A stretch of 64,000 nt of DNA, taken from Archangium violaceum. Its GTDB lineage: Bacteria > Myxococcota > Myxococcia > Myxococcales > Myxococcaceae. Position numbers and translations under genes: made by a program. Location of the stretch: positions 8,187,501 to 8,251,500 of the forward strand of contig NZ_CP069338.1 of NCBI RefSeq assembly GCF_016859125.1. Reading direction: 5' to 3'. Positions within the stretch are counted from its first letter, which is position 1. Every line of letters starts with the position of its first letter. The notes under the pieces were generated by a model. That model saw only the letters and a program-made list of their open reading frames with translations, had not been told where the DNA came from and ran no database searches. Positions 3,090-63,777 of the stretch are shown in pieces.

Positions 3090-5900
<2,811 letters not shown>

Positions 5901-5996: not shown

Positions 5997-7370
5997 ATGA
6001 CGACGACGCCCATCCGCGGCAAGGCCTCCTCGGCCGGCCCCGCGCAGCAGCCTTTCTCCTATCCTCTCCGCCGTGAATTCGTGGAGCCGGACTGGAGACG
6101 CCTGCCCGGCTACAAGAACGTGACCCAGGCCGAGTGGGAAAGTTCCGTCTGGCAGCGCAAGCACACCGTCAAGAACCTCAAGGAGCTCCAGGCCGTCCTC
6201 GGCCATCTGCTGCCCGAGGATCTCCTGGCCAGCATGGAGCGCGATCAGCGCGAGCGCGCGACGATGTCCATCCTCGTCCCGCCCCAGATGATCAACACCC
6301 TGGACGAGACGGACCTGTGGAACGACCCGGTCCGCCGTTACATGCTACCCGCCTTCGACGACCGGCACCCCGAGTGGCCCAACCACCCCAAGGCCAGTCG
6401 CGACAGCCTCCACGAGGCGGACATGTGGGTCGTGGAGGGCCTCACCCACCGCTACCCCACCAAGGTGCTGGCGGAGATGCTCCCCACCTGCCCCCAGTAC
6501 TGCGGCCACTGCACCCGCATGGATCTCGTGGGCAACGACGTCCCCCAGGTCCAGAAGCACCGCTTCAACATCCCCCAGAAGGAGCGCTACGAGCAGATGC
6601 TCGACTACCTGCGCCGGACGCCCACCGTCCGCGACGTGGTGGTCAGCGGCGGTGACATCGCCAACCTCCCCATCCAGGCCCTCGAGCCGTTCGTCAGCGC
6701 GCTGCTCGATATCCCCAACATCCGGGACATCCGCCTGGCCAGCAAGGGCCTCATGGCCATCCCCCAGCACTTTCTCCAGGATCAGGTGCTGCAGGGACTG
6801 GAGCGCCTCGCCAAGAAGGCCAACGAGCGCGGCGTGGACCTCGCGCTCCACACCCACGTCAACAACGCCCGCCAGCTCACCCCGCTCGTGGGCAAGGCCG
6901 TGCGCAAGTTGCTCGACATGGGTTTCCGCGACGTGCGCAACCAGGGCGTGCTCCTGCGCGGCGTCAACAGCTCCCCCAAGGAACTCCTCGAGCTGTGCTT
7001 CACGCTGCTCGATCACGCGAAGATCCTCCCGTACTACTTCTACATGTGCGACATGATCCCCAACTCGGAGCACTGGCGGCTCAGCGTGGCCGAGGCCCAG
7101 CAGCTCCAGCACGACATCATGGGGTACATGCCCGGCTTCGCCACCCCGCGCATCGTCTGCGACGTGCCCTTCGTCGGTAAGCGCTGGATCCACCAGGTGG
7201 CCGATTACGACCGCGAGCGCGGCATCTCGTACTGGACCAAGAACTACCGCACCGGCATCGAGGGCAATGACCCCGATGCCCTCTCGCGCAAGTACGAGTA
7301 CTTCGACCCCATCTACACGCTGCCCGAGTCGGGCCAGCAGTGGTGGCGCGAGCAGGCCAAGGCGGCGTGA
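5997..7370 (+). CDS. KamA-family radical SAM aminomutase, divergent paralogue
   Basis: A 457-aa protein of the lysine 2,3-aminomutase family, whose members use SAM, a 4Fe-4S cluster and PLP to move an alpha-amino group to the beta carbon. The cluster motif is Cys165-x3-Cys169-x2-Cys172 (CPQYCGHC). The C-terminal segment CDVPFVGKRW supplies a candidate PLP lysine, Lys395, with Asp389 six residues earlier. Canonical enzymes have PGGGGK with a seven-residue spacing, so the active site differs and the substrate may not be lysine. ATG 5997 is preferred over an in-frame TTG at 5988 because AAGG sits 9 bp upstream. It overlaps the next gene by one base. Confidence 0.88.
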   Translation: MTTTPIRGKASSAGPAQQPFSYPLRREFVEPDWRRLPGYKNVTQAEWESSVWQRKHTVKNLKELQAVLGHLLPEDLLASMERDQRERATMSILVPPQMINTLDETDLWNDPVRRYMLPAFDDRHPEWPNHPKASRDSLHEADMWVVEGLTHRYPTKVLAEMLPTCPQYCGHCTRMDLVGNDVPQVQKHRFNIPQKERYEQMLDYLRRTPTVRDVVVSGGDIANLPIQALEPFVSALLDIPNIRDIRLASKGLMAIPQHFLQDQVLQGLERLAKKANERGVDLALHTHVNNARQLTPLVGKAVRKLLDMGFRDVRNQGVLLRGVNSSPKELLELCFTLLDHAKILPYYFYMCDMIPNSEHWRLSVAEAQQLQHDIMGYMPGFATPRIVCDVPFVGKRWIHQVADYDRERGISYWTKNYRTGIEGNDPDALSRKYEYFDPIYTLPESGQQWWREQAKAA

Positions 7371-28685: not shown

Positions 28686-31487
28686 CTAGGACAGCCAGAA
28701 GTAGGCGGAGGCGATCAGCGAGCGCTTCTCCGTCACCTTCGACTTGTTGGCCAGGTCCGCCACTTGACGGTCCTTCGCCGCGTAACGCTTCTCCTCCTCG
28801 TTGCGCAGCGAGGCCAGCTTCTTGCGGTACTCGCGCTCCAGGCGCTCCGCGTGCCCACGGGCCTTCACGCGCTCGGCGGGGTCTTCCTGCGCGCACACCA
28901 CCTTGCGCGCCTCCTGCCAGGCCTCGCGTGCCCGCTCCACCTGCTCGCGCGACTCCAGGAGGCAGTCCTCCGCGTACCGGTCCGCCCGCTCCCGCGCCAG
29001 ATCCATCTCCAGCGCGTTGCGCCGCTCCGCCGCCCGGAGGATCTCCTCCTTGGCCGCCATCAGCGCCTGCTCCTGCATCAGCGACACGGACACCGGAGGC
29101 GGCTGCCGGCGCCGCTCCTCCTTCGCCGCCAGCTTCACGAAGTGCTCGCCGTCCGCCAGCGGCAGCGCCCGGAAGCCCTTGCCGTCGCGCTCCAGCACCA
29201 GCACCAGGTGCACCATCTTCTCTTCGGCCTTCAGGCCCGTCGTCTCGAACTTGTAGACGAACCACCAGCCCTCGCTGCCCGCCAGCCGGGCCAGCCGCGC
29301 CGGCAATCCCGCCGCGTTGAGCTGCAGGTAGTTGATGGCGTCGTGCGTCCTGTCCCGGACGGCATAGGCCGCCTTGGCCACCTGGAGCCGGCCCGAGGCG
29401 CTGCTGTTGCCCAGCACCGAGCCCGTCAGCGCGCGCGCACCCTGCTGGCGCTTCTCCAGCGCCTCCTTCGCCACCGCCCCGGCGATGCGAAGCCGCCGCC
29501 GCACATCGCCGTCGAAGCGCTCCATCAGCACCGAGCGCGCTTCCGTCATGCGCGCGCTGATGCGGCCCTCCATGTCCGAGCGCAGCTTGTCGAACGCCGC
29601 GTTGATGTCATCCGGGTGGCGGCAGGACTGGTAGATGTCCAGGATGCGCCGCTCGAAGTCCACGCCGCTCTCCAGCGCGCCGAGGATTTCATCCGACGCG
29701 CCGAACACGCCGTCGAAGAGGCTGAGCTTCTTCTCCAGCAGCTCGTATAGCCGCGCGTCCGCGGCGTTCTGCCGGTTGAGGAAGTTGATGACGAGCACGT
29801 CCCGCTGCTGGCCGTAGCGGTGGCAGCGGCCGATGCGCTGCTCCACCCGCTGCGGGTTCCACGGCAGATCGTAGTTCACCACCAGGTTGCAGAACTGGAG
29901 GTTGAGCCCCTCGGCGCCCGCCTCGGTGCAGATGAGGATCTGCGTCTTCTCGCGGAACTCCGTCACCAGCGCGCGGCGCTCCTCCGGACCGCCTCCGCCA
30001 TCGCCGGAGAGCAGGGAGATCTTCCCCGCGTAGCCGTTGGCCGACAGCAGGTTGAAGAGGTACTGCTGGGTGCGCTTGGACTCGGTGAAGATGAGCGCCT
30101 TCTCCGGCCAGCCCTGGGCCTTCATCACCTTGAAGGTGCGCTCCAGCGCGCGCTTGAGGGCCTCGCCCTTGGCGTTCACCTTGATGGAGTCCGCGAGGTC
30201 CGCGTACTGCTTCAGCTCCCACATCTCGTTCTCGAGCGTGCGGATGCTGACGGGCTTGGCGGGATCATCGGCCCACTCCTCGCCCTCCTCGACGTACTGC
30301 CTGGCCTCCTCGGGCTCGAAGAGGGCCAGGGCGCGCTGGCCCAGCTTCGCCGCCTCCAGACGTTTGGCGAGGTTGTCCGCCAGCCGCCGCAGGGTGGGGG
30401 CGATGGCGTACGTGGAGGAGGCCAGCAGCTTGCGGTAGCAGAGCGTGAGCAGCGTCTTCTTGCCCGGCTCGATGGCCGCGACCTCGGAGCGCCGCAGGTA
30501 CTCGCTCACCTTCTCGTAGAGATCCTGCTCCTCGGGCGAGGGCGCGAAGTCCTCCACGATGGAGCGGCGGTTGGTGTAGCGGACGTACTCGCGCACCTGC
30601 CGGCGCAGCGTGCGTTGCACCACGGGGGCCAGCCGCTCCTTGAGCTCGTTGACGGCGTCCGTCTGCAGCCCGCCCGTCTCCGCCTCCAGCCGGTAGCGGC
30701 TGCGGAAGGCGTGCTCGGGGCCGAGGATCTGCTCGTCCAGGAGCGTCACCAGCCCGAACAGCTCCATCAGATCGTTCTGCAGGGGCGTGGCGGTGAGCAG
30801 CAGCTTGGGGCGGCCGCTGAGCGCGGAGCGGAGCGCCTGGCCCGTCTTGTGGCCCGCCTTGTAGGCGTTCCGCAGACGGTGGGCCTCGTCGATGATGACC
30901 ACGTCCCACGGAATCTCGGCCACCAGCTGCGCCTTGTTGGCGGCGAACGGGTGCGAGCAGATGACGGGGAAGGGCTGATCGAAGCAGTTGCCCGTGGCGC
31001 GCACCGTGCGGCCATCCACCATCACCGATTCCAGGTCGAACTTCTCGCGCAGCTCGCTGTTCCACTGCGCCCGCAATACGGCCGGGGCGAGGATGAGGAT
31101 GCGCGTCTTCCCCTCGGCCACGAGCTGGGCGATGACCATGCCCGCCTCGATGGTCTTCCCCAGACCCACCTCGTCCGCGAGCATGCAGCCGCCGCGCGAC
31201 AGCGAGTCCAGCGCGAAGCACGCGGCCTCGAGTTGGTGGGGGTTGAGATCCACCCTGGCCTCGGCGAGTGCTCCCGCGAGCCGCTCGCGCGAGTCGGAGC
31301 TCTTGATGGTGAGCTCCTCGGCGAGCAGACGCTCGTGGAACGATGTCAGCGGCTGGCCCTGCTCAGCGTCCCCGCGGACCTCCGTCCCCGACGCCACCGC
31401 CGCCGCCGCCGCATCCACCTCCACCCGCAGGTCCCTGAACTCCCTGGCGACTTCCGACAAGTCCCTGTCTCCATCCGTAGCTGACAA
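28686..31487 (-). CDS. SNF2/RapA-type superfamily 2 ATPase with C-terminal coiled coil
   Basis: About 933 aa. Helicase motifs: Walker A GLGKT (about 108-112, in LADEVGLGKTIEAGMV), DEAH (about 200-203, in VVIIDEAHRL), TATPLQN, and the C-terminal RecA-like domain with STEAGAEGLNLQ-type motif (ICTEAGAEGLNLQFCN) and QRIGRCHRYGQ. A long Glu/Arg-rich coiled coil fills the last 250 residues. The set matches RapA/HepA-like SNF2 proteins, which remodel RNA polymerase or DNA-protein complexes; DISARM DrmD is a relative, but no DISARM partners are nearby. The start is uncertain: TTG 31487 has GGGAG upstream, GTG 31511 is an alternative, and the frame opens to 31598. Confidence 0.85.
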   Translation of the reverse strand: MSATDGDRDLSEVAREFRDLRVEVDAAAAAVASGTEVRGDAEQGQPLTSFHERLLAEELTIKSSDSRERLAGALAEARVDLNPHQLEAACFALDSLSRGGCMLADEVGLGKTIEAGMVIAQLVAEGKTRILILAPAVLRAQWNSELREKFDLESVMVDGRTVRATGNCFDQPFPVICSHPFAANKAQLVAEIPWDVVIIDEAHRLRNAYKAGHKTGQALRSALSGRPKLLLTATPLQNDLMELFGLVTLLDEQILGPEHAFRSRYRLEAETGGLQTDAVNELKERLAPVVQRTLRRQVREYVRYTNRRSIVEDFAPSPEEQDLYEKVSEYLRRSEVAAIEPGKKTLLTLCYRKLLASSTYAIAPTLRRLADNLAKRLEAAKLGQRALALFEPEEARQYVEEGEEWADDPAKPVSIRTLENEMWELKQYADLADSIKVNAKGEALKRALERTFKVMKAQGWPEKALIFTESKRTQQYLFNLLSANGYAGKISLLSGDGGGGPEERRALVTEFREKTQILICTEAGAEGLNLQFCNLVVNYDLPWNPQRVEQRIGRCHRYGQQRDVLVINFLNRQNAADARLYELLEKKLSLFDGVFGASDEILGALESGVDFERRILDIYQSCRHPDDINAAFDKLRSDMEGRISARMTEARSVLMERFDGDVRRRLRIAGAVAKEALEKRQQGARALTGSVLGNSSASGRLQVAKAAYAVRDRTHDAINYLQLNAAGLPARLARLAGSEGWWFVYKFETTGLKAEEKMVHLVLVLERDGKGFRALPLADGEHFVKLAAKEERRRQPPPVSVSLMQEQALMAAKEEILRAAERRNALEMDLARERADRYAEDCLLESREQVERAREAWQEARKVVCAQEDPAERVKARGHAERLEREYRKKLASLRNEEEKRYAAKDRQVADLANKSKVTEKRSLIASAYFWLS

Positions 31488-31635
31488 CGTGCTCCCACAG
31501 GCGTGTAGCACGAAAGGGGGGCCATTTTGTTGAGCGTGAAGGATGTGTAAAGGGGGTCTTCTCCAAGGCCGAAAAATCGGCTCCAGAGCGCTTGGCACGG
31601 TTTTTCGTCGGGAGCGTCGCCGCGAGTGCGGAAAA

Positions 31636-31759
31636 AGCTACAGCATCCCTCGCGCCTTCACGTGCAGATACGTGTTGACGGCGGCGGCGCCGAAGCCCTT
31701 CGCGGGAGCACGCACCACGAGTGCACCCGAGTCCCGAAGCGTGAGCGCCGTGCGCTGGT
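31636..31759 (-). repeat. 124-bp direct repeat, distal copy (copy A)
   Basis: Identical over all 124 bp to 32830-32953, in the same orientation, 1194 bp away. It repeats the last 40 codons and stop of the DUF58 gene. Beyond 31759 the next seven bases still match at five positions, so the homology extends slightly with divergence. Confidence 0.95.
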
Positions 31760-31766
31760 GGTTCTC
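31638..31766 (-). pseudogene. Detached 3' end of a DUF58 gene
   Basis: Read on the minus strand this encodes the DUF58 C-terminus ([16 protein letters not shown] onward to KARGML and a stop at 31638). The intact gene has YQRTAL at the same place. It has no start, lies about 20 bp after the DUF4265 stop, and is a remnant created by the insertion or duplication event around the HNH/DUF4265 pair. Confidence 0.85.
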
Positions 31767-31784
31767 AAAACCGTCCGGCCTTCA

Positions 31785-32234
31785 TCAAGCAAGCCCCTCG
31801 TGACGGATGCAGGCGTCCTCGAACTCCAAGGACCCCGATGATTGCTTCTCCATGAGCCATTTGCGCACGGCTTGGAGATCGATCCGGGGGGGCACGTCCA
31901 CGCCCAGCATCTTCGAGACGTTCAGCTCCGTCGAGCAGCCGAGCTCCTGCAGCTGGCGACGCACCTCTTCTACGTGGGATTCGTCGAAGACGATGATGCG
32001 CAGCGTGCTGCTGCCTGAAGCCCGAACCAGTTCCGAGAACACCACCTCTCCCTCGCCCTGCCGTGCGGCGACCACATCGCCGACACTGATACCCCGGACG
32101 AAGAAGGGGATGTTGTCGATCTCGAACAAGCCCTCTCCCAGGGGTCTGGCCCAGAGCCGCTCGTACTCGACGGGAGGATAATCCTCATCCTCCTTTTCGA
32201 GCTCGAACAGGACCCTCACGTATTCATCCGGCAT
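31785..32234 (-). CDS. DUF4265 protein, candidate immunity protein for the HNH toxin
   Basis: 149 aa, cytoplasmic and acidic, with no signal peptide. The DUF4265 core is evident: PPVEYERLWARPLGEG, FEIDNIPFFVRGISVGDVV and LRIIVFDESHVEEVRRQL. ATG 32234 has GGAG upstream and gives the usual N-terminus (MPDEYVRVLFELEKED); a longer frame reaches back into the HNH gene. It starts 17 bp after the HNH stop. Toxin followed by a small acidic protein is the usual order of nuclease/immunity pairs, so immunity is inferred from context only. Confidence 0.78.
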   Translation of the reverse strand: MPDEYVRVLFELEKEDEDYPPVEYERLWARPLGEGLFEIDNIPFFVRGISVGDVVAARQGEGEVVFSELVRASGSSTLRIIVFDESHVEEVRRQLQELGCSTELNVSKMLGVDVPPRIDLQAVRKWLMEKQSSGSLEFEDACIRHEGLA

Positions 32235-32251
32235 GAAACCGCGCTCCCGGG

Positions 32252-32788
32252 TCAGAGCTTGTCGCTCTTCTCGTTGTTGCACTCCCTGCATAGGACCTGT
32301 CCATTCGAGGGCGCTCCGTCTCCGCCCTTCGCTCTCGGAATGACGTGATCCACCTGGGCCTCATGGCTCGGTGGAGTGACTCCTTTCTGGCTCTTCTGGG
32401 CCTCAACGGTCGTGACACCACAGTTCTCGCAGCGCTTCTCGCCATCGTATTTTCGGGCGTTCTCCGCCTTGACGTCCTTCTTTCCCTTGGGAGTGAATCG
32501 CATGTAGGCCCGTTCGCCATTCGCGGTGCCTTTCGGATGCGACTGTCCACCTTTCTTGCCTGCCGCGATGGCTACGGAGTCAACGGGCAGAACCTGTTGT
32601 GCGAGAGGCTCGAGCACAGTGGCTTCCGCGGTTCGAGCCACTCCTGTTCCCGCGCCCATGGATGGCTGTGCGAAGGACGGTATGGCTGCGAGCCCAGCAA
32701 CCAGCAGCAGCAGGGGTATCCACTGGAGCAGGTTCCCTGGGAATGCCGACGTGCCGCGGTGAGCCCGCCTCATGTCGCGTGCGTTCAT
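32252..32788 (-). CDS. Secreted HNH nuclease, candidate polymorphic toxin
   Basis: 178 aa. A long N-terminal signal peptide (LLQWIPLLLLVAGLAAIPSF, then AQP) is followed by a linker and a C-terminal HNH/Zn nuclease domain: Cys120-x2-Cys123, Asp147-His148, Asn162 (SNGQVLC), Cys167-x2-Cys170 and Asn171. The nuclease motif sits at the extreme C-terminus, as in polymorphic toxins. No lipobox is present, so it is not a SitA-type lipoprotein as it stands. Codon use is less GC3-biased than in the flanking genes. ATG 32788 is used; GTG 32806 is possible. It starts about 45 bp after the end of the DUF58 gene, between the two 124-bp repeats. Confidence 0.82.
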   Translation of the reverse strand: MNARDMRRAHRGTSAFPGNLLQWIPLLLLVAGLAAIPSFAQPSMGAGTGVARTAEATVLEPLAQQVLPVDSVAIAAGKKGGQSHPKGTANGERAYMRFTPKGKKDVKAENARKYDGEKRCENCGVTTVEAQKSQKGVTPPSHEAQVDHVIPRAKGGDGAPSNGQVLCRECNNEKSDKL

Positions 32789-32829
32789 TCCGTTCTCTTT
32801 CTCCACGCAGCCGCGTAAAGGCCGATAGC

Positions 32830-32953
32830 AGCTACAGCATCCCTCGCGCCTTCACGTGCAGATACGTGTTGACGGCGGCGGCGCCGAAGCCCTTCGCGGG
32901 AGCACGCACCACGAGTGCACCCGAGTCCCGAAGCGTGAGCGCCGTGCGCTGGT
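32830..32953 (-). repeat. 124-bp direct repeat, gene-proximal copy (copy B)
   Basis: Forms the genuine 3' end of the DUF58 gene (stop at 32832-32834). Identical to 31636-31759. Together the copies bracket the HNH/DUF4265 cassette. Confidence 0.95.
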
Positions 32954-60271: not shown

Positions 60272-61891
60272 CTGGGTTTCCAACTCACCATCTCCAAGGG
60301 TCTGCAGCAGGGGAAGGAACTTCTCTTCGAGCAGGCCGAGATCCATATCGGACGCACCGCGGACAACGACGTGGTGCTGCAGGATGCCGGTGTGTCGCGC
60401 AAGCACGTGCGCATCTCGGATCGGCTCGGGCGCTTCTATGTCCAGGACCTGGGCAGCTCCAACGGCACCCTGGTCAACGACAAGCCCCTCTCCGGCGAGC
60501 AGGAACTGCAGAACGGGGACCGGATCGCCCTGGGGCCCGTGGAGTTCCTCTTCAAGGAGGTCGTGAGCTCGGACGACGCCACCCGGCCCTTCATGCCGGT
60601 GGAGGAGGACGATGACGCCACCCGGCCCATCCGTCGCAACCTCTACCCGCTCTCGCGCGCGGAGACGGAGGATGGGATGGAGGCGCCGATGTCGGATCTG
60701 TCTCCGGTCGGCCCCGAGCTCGAGACCACGCTCCCCTTGCCTCGTCCCTCGGCGCCGCCCGTGCTTCGTCCCGTGTCGGAGGCCTCGTCCCGGGAGGCAT
60801 TCTCCCGCGCGGACACGGTGGGGGAGATGGAGGTCGTGCCCGAGCCTCGTGCCCCCGCTCCCGTCAAGGCGGCTCCCGCTCCGGCGCTGGCCCCCGTTCC
60901 GGCTCCCGCCGCTGTCGCCGCTCGGGCCTCGTCCGGGGCGGCGGGCCCGTCCGCCGCCGATCTGGCCCGGCGCCGGCGCGAGTTGAGCAACACCCTGGGT
61001 GGACAGCTCGCCCTGTGGTGGCTCGAGATGCCGCGTGGCGGGAAGGTCGCGCTGCTCACCGTGGCCACCAGCTTCCTGGTGGGCATGGTGGCCGCGCTCG
61101 TCATCGTCTTCCGTCCCGAGGTGGACACAGGTCCCACCGGCCCGGAGCCCACGTCGCTCGGCCTCCAGGCGCTGCCGGACTCGTTCGGCCTGGGCGAGGG
61201 CGTGACGTGGGAGCAGCCGGACATGAAGGCGTTCGACTTCGAGTTCGTCTCGCCCACGCGCGCGGTGGCCGTCCTCAGCTACCAGGCTAGCGGCATCTCC
61301 AAGGAAGAGGTCTCCCTCTCCGTCAACGCGACGGCCGTGGGGTGGGTCCCGCCGGACACGACCCACTCCACCGAGCGGGAGCTCCAGCAGATCCTCCCGC
61401 CGTCCGTGCTCGAGCGTAACGCGAGCAACCAGCTCGTCTTCGACAACGTCCGCAATCCCCCGGGCCAGGACAGCTGGCGGGTGTGGAACCTGCGGCTGGA
61501 GATCATCCCCGTGCCGGACCTGCCGCCCGAGCAGCTCCTGGAGACGGCGCGTACCTACGTGGCCAAGGCGCGCAACTTCTACGAGCGCAAGGACGTCGGC
61601 GCGGAGAACCTCACCCTCGCCTGGGAGAACTACCGCTCGGCGTGGATCACCCTCGAGGCGTTGGACGAGAAGCCCGACCTCTATCAGGACGTGCGCCACA
61701 TGATGGGCCAGGTGGCGGTGGACCTGGACCACAAGTGTGGCCAGCTGATGCTGGATTTCCAACGGAACATCCAGTTCAAGGACAGGAAGCGGGCGGCCCG
61801 GGTGCTCGATGAGATCAACAGGCGCTTCCCTACACCGGCGCATCGCTGCCACAATCTGGCGGCCGAAAAGGCCAGCGAATACGGGCTGTGA
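60272..61891 (+). CDS. FHA-domain membrane protein of the Tad operon (probable CTG start)
   Basis: 539 aa. N-terminal FHA phosphothreonine-binding domain: IGRTADNDVVLQDAG (Gly27, Arg28), SRKH (42-45), and SSNGT (62-66). A Pro/Ala-rich linker follows, a membrane helix near 257-280, and an extracytoplasmic helical domain. The frame has no ATG, GTG or TTG upstream of the FHA core; GTG 60371 would delete the Gly-Arg motif. CTG 60272 restores the first strand (GFQLTISKGLQQGKELLF) and sits behind a G-rich sequence, five bases after tadC. FHA proteins often relay Ser/Thr kinase signals to secretion systems. Confidence 0.8.
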   Translation: MGFQLTISKGLQQGKELLFEQAEIHIGRTADNDVVLQDAGVSRKHVRISDRLGRFYVQDLGSSNGTLVNDKPLSGEQELQNGDRIALGPVEFLFKEVVSSDDATRPFMPVEEDDDATRPIRRNLYPLSRAETEDGMEAPMSDLSPVGPELETTLPLPRPSAPPVLRPVSEASSREAFSRADTVGEMEVVPEPRAPAPVKAAPAPALAPVPAPAAVAARASSGAAGPSAADLARRRRELSNTLGGQLALWWLEMPRGGKVALLTVATSFLVGMVAALVIVFRPEVDTGPTGPEPTSLGLQALPDSFGLGEGVTWEQPDMKAFDFEFVSPTRAVAVLSYQASGISKEEVSLSVNATAVGWVPPDTTHSTERELQQILPPSVLERNASNQLVFDNVRNPPGQDSWRVWNLRLEIIPVPDLPPEQLLETARTYVAKARNFYERKDVGAENLTLAWENYRSAWITLEALDEKPDLYQDVRHMMGQVAVDLDHKCGQLMLDFQRNIQFKDRKRAARVLDEINRRFPTPAHRCHNLAAEKASEYGL

Positions 61892-61929: not shown

Positions 61930-63777
61930 ATGTCGAACGGTTCCCCCCCCGCACGCCGTCGTCCCACGTCGGGCTCCCCGTCGGGCTCCCCCTCGGGCTC
62001 CCCCTCGGGTGGAGCCACGGGTTCGCGCCCCGCGGTACGCAGGACCTCCACCGGCACCGCCCCCCGCACCGCGCCCGAGCCGGTGCTGGGGACGAAGCTC
62101 GTCTGCTCCGCGGGCCCCTCCTCCGGTGAGGAGTTCGGGCTGGAGGATGGCGAGTACGTCGTTGGCCGGGCCAACGACAACCCCATCTGCATTCCGGACA
62201 CCTCGGTGTCCCGCAGGCACGTGCTCATCCGCCGCGTGGGCGGAGGCTGGGCCGCGAGCGACCTGGGTTCCGGCAACGGCACCCTCCTCAACGGCGAGCC
62301 CCTCACCGACGAGATGCCGCTGACGCACGGCGACATCCTCACGCTCGGCGACACGGAGCTGACGTTCAACGACACCTCCAACGCCACGATGATGATGCCG
62401 ATGCCGGTGGCGCCCCCGACGCGGCCGGCCCGCTCGCGCCCCGCGGCCAGGCCCGCTCCCGCCGCCGACGCCGGGGATGAGGCCGATGCCGAGGGGAGTG
62501 GAGAGGTGTCGTCCTCCGTTCCGCGCCGCCCGCCGCCCCGTCCCGAGGGCCGCGTGCGCTCCTCGCGGGGGCGAGCGGCGACGGCGGCGGCGGCGCCGGA
62601 TCCGAAGGCGCAGCAGCGCAAGAAGCGCCTGTTGCTCCTCACCGCGGGTGTCTTCGTGATGCTGGTGGGCCTGCTGGCCATCATGAAGGTGCAGCAGCAG
62701 CGGGAAGAGGAGGTCCTGCGCGCCAAGGCGCGGATCGCCCAGGAGCGGCGCGAGCAGATCGAAGCGCTCTTCCAGGAGGCCAAGAACCTCATCCGCGACG
62801 GCAAGTGGACGGCCGCCAAGGCGAAGCTGCTGGAGCTGCAGGAGGCGGAGCCCAACCACGTGCAGCTGCCGGACTACCTGGCGCGCGTGCAGAAGGAGAT
62901 CCCCAACCAGGAGGCGCTCGACGTGGCCAAGGCGGCGCTGGACAAGAATCAGCTCGGCCCCGCGGCCGCCGCCCTGGCCAAGGTGAGCAAGGACACCCAG
63001 CTCTTCGAGCTGGCGCGTACCCTCCGGGTGTCGCTGACCGACAAGGCCGACAAGCGCGTGCGTGAATCGCAGACGCTGTTGGAGCAGAAGCAGCTCGATC
63101 AGGCCAAGGCCATCACCGACGACGTGCTCGCGGCGTTTCCGGAGCACCGCGACGCCAAGGTCATCAACGAGCAGGCGGCGCAGGCCATCGCCATCCGCGA
63201 CGCGCCTCCGCCGCCCCCCACGCCGAAGGAGGCGCCCAAGCCGTGGGAGCAGGCCGTGGATCGCTTCCGCGATGGAGATCTACAGGGCGCGGTGGCCATG
63301 GCCAACGCCTGCTCGTCCAAGCACTCCCAGTGCAAGGTCCTGATGGGGCAGCTGACGGACTTCGGCAACCTCTACAAGAAGCTGGAGGACCTGGACGCCA
63401 AGGGCCTGGCGCGCCTGCTGGACCTGGACAAGAAGATCACCAACGGTCGCGGGAGCAAGCTGTCGCGCTCCGCGGGCACGCGCGCCGCCAACATCTTCTT
63501 CAAGAGCGCCTCGGCGGCGAAGGCGGCCGGACAGTACGGCCGCGCCATGGAGAACGCCCAGCGCGCCCTCCAGGCCGACCCCGGCCATGTCGGTGCCACC
63601 AACATCGTCAGCGAGCTGCGCGCGAAGGCCAAGGACGTCTACCTGCAGGCCTATGCCCTCAAGGACACCAATCCCGAGGACGCCGTGCTCAAGTTCAAGG
63701 AGGTCCTCGCCATGAGCCCGGCGGAAGACGAGACGCACCAGAAGGCGAAGTCCTGGATCGAGAAGCTCCAGCGATGA
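61930..63777 (+). CDS. FHA-domain protein with membrane helix and TPR-like repeats
   Basis: 615 aa. A disordered N-terminus with Ser-Gly-Ser-Pro repeats is followed by an FHA domain (VVGRANDNPICIPDTSVSRRH, cited for place; DLGSGNGTLLNGEPL) near residues 55-140, a membrane helix near 234-253 (LLLLTAGVFVMLVGLLAIM) and about 350 residues of helical TPR-like repeats outside (GKWTAAKAKLLELQEAEPNH; AMENAQRALQADPGHVGATN). With the FHA protein before it and the Ser/Thr kinases common in this genome type, a phosphorylation-responsive Tad regulator is inferred. The start lies just before a run of eight C. Confidence 0.87.
   Translation: MSNGSPPARRRPTSGSPSGSPSGSPSGGATGSRPAVRRTSTGTAPRTAPEPVLGTKLVCSAGPSSGEEFGLEDGEYVVGRANDNPICIPDTSVSRRHVLIRRVGGGWAASDLGSGNGTLLNGEPLTDEMPLTHGDILTLGDTELTFNDTSNATMMMPMPVAPPTRPARSRPAARPAPAADAGDEADAEGSGEVSSSVPRRPPPRPEGRVRSSRGRAATAAAAPDPKAQQRKKRLLLLTAGVFVMLVGLLAIMKVQQQREEEVLRAKARIAQERREQIEALFQEAKNLIRDGKWTAAKAKLLELQEAEPNHVQLPDYLARVQKEIPNQEALDVAKAALDKNQLGPAAAALAKVSKDTQLFELARTLRVSLTDKADKRVRESQTLLEQKQLDQAKAITDDVLAAFPEHRDAKVINEQAAQAIAIRDAPPPPPTPKEAPKPWEQAVDRFRDGDLQGAVAMANACSSKHSQCKVLMGQLTDFGNLYKKLEDLDAKGLARLLDLDKKITNGRGSKLSRSAGTRAANIFFKSASAAKAAGQYGRAMENAQRALQADPGHVGATNIVSELRAKAKDVYLQAYALKDTNPEDAVLKFKEVLAMSPAEDETHQKAKSWIEKLQR
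61969..62010 (+). repeat. 12-bp tandem repeat in the FHA-TPR gene
   Basis: About three and a half copies of a 12-bp unit (TCGGGCTCCCCG or its one-base variant) encode Ser-Gly-Ser-Pro. In frame, so changes in copy number would not shift the frame. Confidence 0.8.

Follow-up and report, generated by a model that had tools for sequence, protein, structure and literature searches.

The 3′ end of a non-toxin gene appears to have served as the entry point for a small toxin/immunity-like cassette in the genus Archangium. In the window, meaning the whole analyzed stretch of 64,000 nucleotides from Archangium violaceum, a putative HNH nuclease gene and a DUF4265 gene lie between an intact DUF58 gene and a second copy of the end of this gene. 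The spread of small integrase-free toxin/immunity cassettes has so far been described largely by models. Here, a single site can be aligned in its empty, filled, and scarred states, a sister genome makes the polarity readable, and the scar consists of the end of a harmless neighbor gene. The insertion probably occurred through homologous recombination anchored in the neighbor gene, combined with illegitimate joining on the other side.

The duplicated gene end and the enclosed genes

The DUF58 3′ end is present in two directly repeated copies, identical over 124 bp and separated by a period of 1194 bp (Table 1), and the extended repeat reaches 131 bp at 98%. The repeated sequence covers approximately the last 39 codons of the DUF58 gene, its stop codon, and 2 bp past the stop, where the similarity ends. 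At the other edge, only 7 further bp can be aligned, 5 of which match, before the similarity stops as well. The locus is single copy in a genome of 12.68 Mb assembled in one contig. In the gene direction, the order is DUF58, HNH, DUF4265, second tail, and SNF2 helicase, all on the minus strand. Among the open reading frames between the copies, compared with Pfam, only the HNH and DUF4265 genes were recognized, and none encoded a transposase or an integrase.

The preliminary description had claimed a mismatch-free duplication with this period, the two genes between its copies, and the absence of a transposase or integrase; repeat alignment, Pfam, and the list of reading frames confirmed these points. 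The same description took the edge mismatches (HQRTAL against YQRTAL) as a sign of a foreign or partly homogenized distal tail. Such a short edge, in which two mismatches within 7 bp account for the His versus Tyr difference, is uninformative. One other direct repeat was detected along the window, a 231-bp pair at 61% (60329–60558 and 62143–62372), in seven scans, six of 10 kb and one of the last 4 kb.

Table 1. Features of the DUF58–helicase locus in the window
Feature	Position	Strand	Basis
DUF58/vWA-like gene, upstream neighbor, presumed recombination anchor, intact, 441 aa	32832..34157	-	Pfam DUF58 8e-32, VWA_2 1e-9
Tail copy 1, 3′ end of the intact DUF58 gene	32830..32953	-	exact 124-bp repeat
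Putative HNH nuclease toxin gene, 184 aa, Sec-type signal-like N-terminus, without lipobox	32252..32806	-	HNH_5 5e-10, HNH 8e-10; domain relatives are Rhs-protein C-termini; signal rule
DUF4265 gene, presumed immunity protein, alternative longer start at 32291	31785..32234	-	DUF4265 2e-32; directly 3′ of 33/33 HNH relatives
Tail copy 2, apparently displaced native DUF58 3′ end, remnant	31636..31759	-	exact repeat; runs into flank alignable to empty-site relatives
Native intergenic flank ahead of the helicase gene	31599..31635	-	alignment to empty sites of G004 and G034
SNF2-family helicase gene, downstream neighbor	28686..31598	-	DISARM DrmD relative, 627 bits vs model cut-off 950

The HNH and DUF4265 genes form a recurrent pair. 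In all 33 HNH hits, a DUF4265 gene follows directly 3′ on the same strand, 15–115 bp downstream, and 24 of the 57 hits to DUF4265 stand without an HNH hit. From the 71 database hits of the HNH protein, ten were chosen for length, and in eight of these Rhs_assc_core is present above the cut-off, N-terminal to HNH. Because longer relatives carry the Rhs core ahead of it, the HNH domain represents a polymorphic-toxin tip in a stand-alone form. According to a crude rule applied to 30 HNH loci, the N-terminus is signal-like in 20 and the HNH motif recognizable in 22, and a possible lipobox occurs in one, which is not that of the window. The HNH protein of the window gave no hit to SitA-type families at E ≤ 1e-3. 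The toxicity, immunity, and delivery of the pair are presumed from its sequence.

The interval between DUF58 and the helicase across the family

A DUF58 match at E ≤ 1e-60 is present in 88 of the 96 family genomes, in some of them through a second paralogue only. The stretch behind the gene was read in 60 genomes, with divergent genera and several short contigs set aside, and the helicase lies on the same stretch in 59 of them (the contig of G080 ends before it). In 48 of these 59 loci, the gap between DUF58 and the helicase is at most 205 bp and the site is empty. The interval is occupied in 11 loci, with gaps from 708 bp to 7.1 kb: four of six in the genus of the window, three of four in g6, one of one in g8, one of seven in g7, and the distant G043 and G044. 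No occupied interval was encountered among the 39 genomes read from g4, g5, and g19.

The cargo of the interval differs between genomes. The HNH/DUF4265 pair occupies it in the genome of the window (G000) and in G003, G005, and G006. In G003 (L094, 4501–8409), it is accompanied by AAA ATPase and PD-(D/E)XK/DUF2357 genes, read as a McrBC-like pair. The cargo of G031 includes a protein that weakly matches DUF2380 and whose N-terminus resembles that of lipoproteins. Eight other insert proteins received no NCBIfam name. DUF2380 itself has 21 hits in G000, and among 18 stretches around them (L222–L239), which stand outside the bracketing test described below for HNH/DUF4265 modules, direct repeats are listed for three (L225, L234, and L238). 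The empty sites of G002 (L097) and G034 (L102) leave approximately 23 bp from DUF58 to the estimated helicase start, with approximately 50 bp less flank than in G004, and their junctions look as if they had been secondarily emptied by deletion.

On the side of the helicase, a remnant of the DUF58 3′ end is retained in all four occupied Archangium loci, with lengths of 124, approximately 54, 16, and 16 bp. The shortest remnants, in G003 (no mismatches) and G005 (two mismatches), are 16-bp pieces of the DUF58 end located between the cargo and the native flank, and these two genomes have no long second tail. The same piece occurs in G006, with one mismatch, just ahead of the native tail. The 16-bp motif was picked after the data were seen; a search along the gene strand in the 60 DUF58–helicase stretches, allowing up to two mismatches, found it only at DUF58 ends and at the three places in G003, G005, and G006, and it had no match in 880,000 control positions. 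DUF58 ends thus bracket all four Archangium insertions. Outside Archangium, the insert of G031 contains an internal DUF58 piece of 224 bp (nt 919–1142, 93%) and that of G033 one of 213 bp (nt 926–1138, 87%), so that DUF58 material was displaced in a second genus too, with other end points. The displaced pieces begin at nt 1198, 1273, 919, and 926 of the gene, although decay of their ends may have shifted these positions.

The native copy of the gene end

The order of events can be approached with the host tree, (G000,((G006,G004),(G003,(G005,G002)))), in which three of the four inner branches are starred and one has a support of 92/96. The filled G006 and the empty G004 are sisters (support 100/100). 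The downstream remnant of G006 is identical to the DUF58 end of G004 at 54 of 54 positions, and the flank that follows differs at 1 of 14, whereas the upstream DUF58 end of G006 itself differs from that of G004 at 6 of 54. Compared in 50-bp windows, the two genes agree at 96% between −100 and −50 and at 88% over the final 50 bp. Since the downstream copy is identical to the tail of the empty sister while the upstream end differs, the downstream copy in G006 is the native one and the DUF58 end of the upstream gene the newcomer. The copies of the window show no difference over the last 54 bases, and 7 of the 14 positions beyond the stop differ. Copy 2 runs on into a flank that resembles and aligns with empty sites, which places it in the native context.

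The nearest rival to recombination with a homologous donor end is a long target duplication of the kind attributed to restriction-modification (R-M) systems, in which the 124 bp of the recipient itself would be duplicated and donor homology would be needless. The identity of the two copies in the window agrees with such an origin, as does the near identity of those at the L192 locus described below; both speak against a foreign donor end unless a further assumption is made. For the identical tails of the window, this assumption may be an exchange at or near the stop codon, the same tail in donor and recipient, or later gene conversion. According to PMC3031569, R-M systems of every type are able to insert with target duplications that are long and of variable length. 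The pattern in G006 is the reverse of what self-duplication predicts, because there the remnant, which is the unconstrained copy, is unchanged with respect to the empty sister and the constrained upstream copy is 6 of 54 bases off. Target duplication is considered rather unlikely on this account.

The preliminary description proposed a hot spot at a gene end with an intact host gene, and the empty sites and differing cargo support it. The states it predicted in relatives were also encountered: DUF58 tails directly before the helicase region in the 48 empty loci, other cargo in the same interval (e.g., in G003 and G031), and unequal tails in G006, G003, and G005. Its suggestion of a foreign origin for the distal tail has to be turned around, as the distal tail lies in the native context and the non-native tail in G006 is the one fused to the upstream gene. 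The entry of a toxin/immunity-like pair at this gene end, leaving the host gene intact, gains support from the empty sites, the differing cargo, and the unequal tails taken together. The shuffling of kin-discrimination modules between lineages, which the description also raised, was not demonstrated, the module tree departing from the host tree without significance. No paper naming this site was found in literature listings, full texts aside.

Other loci of the HNH/DUF4265 pair

The bracketing of modules by direct repeats was examined in 44 modules out of 57 DUF4265 places found, with 13 left out. Direct repeats bracket seven of the 44 modules and none of 132 control placements in 44 sequence windows, 14 of which contain some direct repeat. 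The bracketed modules are those of the window, G006, L205, L189, L192, L199, and L216, and in the first five of them the repeat involves the end of a neighboring gene. The other 37 of the 44 are unscarred, and with only seven bracketed, end duplication was rejected as a rule for all HNH/DUF4265 loci.

One other site with the same 3′ anatomy as in the window is L205 (G005:C75, 4245–5578). A 105-bp stretch ending 6 bp before the 3′ end of a lipoprotein-like gene, for which Pfam gave no hit, recurs at 77% behind a decayed HNH gene and an intact DUF4265 gene. The counterpart in G004 is empty, with only a few bases between the stop of the lipoprotein gene and the downstream flank, and the place of the cassette in G002 is taken by an alpha/beta hydrolase gene. 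Of the two copies in G005, the upstream end is nearer to the sister G002 (alignment score 100) than the downstream copy is to G002 (66), which counts against the anchored insertion; the downstream copy has some diagnostic bases in common with G002. These few bases and the flank only weakly hint at the polarity of L205.

Two further loci show the mirror image of this anatomy, at the 5′ end of the downstream gene. In L189 (G006:C1:4706576-4716824), a 96-bp piece (97%) of the 5′ part of the downstream AMP-binding-domain gene is displaced before HNH, and an 81-bp promoter/start stretch is common (93%) to this gene and the upstream OmpA-domain gene. The search for an empty site of the gene in sister genomes found only relatives of at most 75% identity. 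In L192 (G031:C15), a repeat of 269 bp at 99.6% (4325–4593 and 5449–5717) consists of the last part of the DUF4265 gene and the 5′ part of the downstream gene, recurring before HNH. Among 58 genomes, 28 have a match to this downstream gene, which in G032 and G033 stands behind a DUF4265 gene without an HNH hit. Tandem duplication followed by partial deletion is a possible origin of L192.

The remaining two bracketed modules have repeats of another kind. In L199 (G041), the module is placed within 102-bp repeats at 73.5% (4723–4823 and 6849–6950), the second of which partially matches the tmRNA 3′ end (Rfam, E 3e-4); a tRNA search at this locus was negative. The tmRNA 3′ end is a classic attachment (att) site, and the repeats of L199 are possibly old attachment sites. 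In L216 (G056:C131), the module lies within a 127-bp repeat at 77% (4633–4756 and 6062–6188), and the gene ahead of it is read as Rhs. The repeats of L192 and L216 had also been considered as duplicated DUF4265 genes; this interpretation was discarded when reading in the gene orientation gave the 5′ part of the downstream gene in L192 and an unnamed stretch in L216.

Proposed mechanism of insertion

In the proposed course, the incoming DNA would carry a DUF58 3′ end together with the two-gene HNH/DUF4265 cassette. The incoming DUF58 end would recombine by homology inside the resident DUF58 gene. Illegitimate joining would attach the other end of the incoming DNA within the resident tail, just upstream. 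The product of such an event would be an intact DUF58 gene followed by the cassette and the displaced native tail, which adjoins the helicase gene. The pattern fits homology-facilitated illegitimate recombination, because the anchor is intact, the upstream end in G006 is non-native, the native end is displaced, the end points vary, and no integrase is present. At the right junction in the window, the 124-bp copy has an abrupt start behind DUF4265, where five of seven further bases match, and microhomology was not demonstrated there.

The arrangement of tail, cassette, and tail may also be taken as a mobile unit in its own right, although this extension is unlikely. Recombination between the tails would release a circle of 1194 bp, which would re-enter the DUF58 tails of relatives by a single crossover without any integrase. 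Such a circle would carry the toxin, the immunity gene, and one DUF58 tail, and its pop-out would restore the empty site exactly. The end of a non-toxin gene would then act as an attachment site, used by RecA, for weapon cassettes across Archangium.

The anchored insertion has to be weighed against a single ancestral insertion in Archangium, inherited vertically and lost in G002 and G004, with gene conversion or slow decay keeping the tails of the window identical. In our reading, presence with two losses is more parsimonious on the host tree, and a homologous leader of approximately 96 bp after the DUF58 stop is common to G000, G003, and G005. The empty site of G002 resembles a deletion scar, and tail–tail recombination in G004 would likewise leave a tail of the downstream type. 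In the module tree, unlike in the host tree, G000 and G005 group together (support 82/87). The AU test does not reject the host grouping (p 0.146); the discordance is therefore not significant, and it was dropped as a proof of transfer. The difficulty for a single insertion lies in G006, where the leader is unrelated (score 11, shuffle maximum 14), which speaks for a separate entry, and where the native tail after the 16-bp vestige suggests that a second insertion took place at an empty site like that of G004. One insertion for the whole genus is quite improbable in the light of G006, and for part of the data vertical inheritance with loss is possible.

Direct repeats of the 3′ end of a gene are also the typical anatomy of att sites, and the locus may be seen as the remnant of a site-specific integrative element, with the DUF58 3′ end as att and the integrase lost or supplied in trans. 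The repeats of L199 and their tmRNA match point in the same direction. Such an element is very improbable at the DUF58 locus, where the interval holds no integrase and the scattered starts of the displaced DUF58 pieces reveal no fixed core, even if decay could shift these ends; in L189 and L192 it is the 5′ end of a gene that is involved. An assembly artefact, for which perfect short-range repeats are a known hazard, has next to no probability here, given a genome in a single contig, a unique sequence between the copies, and unequal remnants at the same place in the assemblies of G006, G003, and G005.

Relation to known systems

Insertion of R-M genes with long target duplication was reportedly described by Nobusato in 2000 and Furuta in 2010 in Helicobacter and others. 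The accessible parts of PMC3031569 and PMC4978471 present it as suggested from genome comparison. The resemblance lies in a small gene pair placed within long direct repeats of the target sequence; the present cargo differs as a putative toxin/immunity pair with a secretion-type N-terminus, and the copies in G006 differ from each other as expected of a donor tail.

Homology-facilitated illegitimate recombination is reported from E. coli conjugation (PMC3240628), and in the available text of PMC5361080 it is proposed for the displacement of type VI secretion (T6SS) effector-immunity genes in Vibrio cholerae. As far as that text describes the Vibrio process, it shares with the Archangium locus a one-sided homology, the shift of old 3′ material downstream, the repetition at one locus, and no known integrase. 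The anchor and the displaced parts in Vibrio are effector and immunity genes, whereas here the end of an unrelated DUF58 gene is involved and the gene is kept intact. What sets the proposed Archangium mechanism apart is the use of a non-toxin gene as an anchor.

Displacement of the C-terminal ends of Rhs/CDI proteins, with orphan toxin tips, is mentioned in the same excerpt of PMC5361080. The HNH tip class found on Rhs proteins and the old ends left downstream are common to both situations. The difference, within what the excerpt covers, is that a whole stand-alone cassette was apparently inserted here with no exchange of a tip, and that the displaced end is not that of a toxin gene. The sitBAI cassettes of myxobacteria are likewise toxin/immunity cassettes, thought to be horizontally acquired, in which the SitA lipoproteins are passed on by outer membrane exchange and are often encoded near mobile elements (according to the accessible part of PMC5562445). 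The HNH protein of the window differs from SitA, as characterized in that part, in the lack of a lipobox and of the family hits considered above.

Displaced gene ends beside cassettes may provide a signature, searchable genome-wide, of how frequently cassettes move by homology to a neighbor. On the downstream side, the hot spot is adjoined by the SNF2 helicase gene, whose product is related to DrmD at a score below the model cut-off (Table 1).
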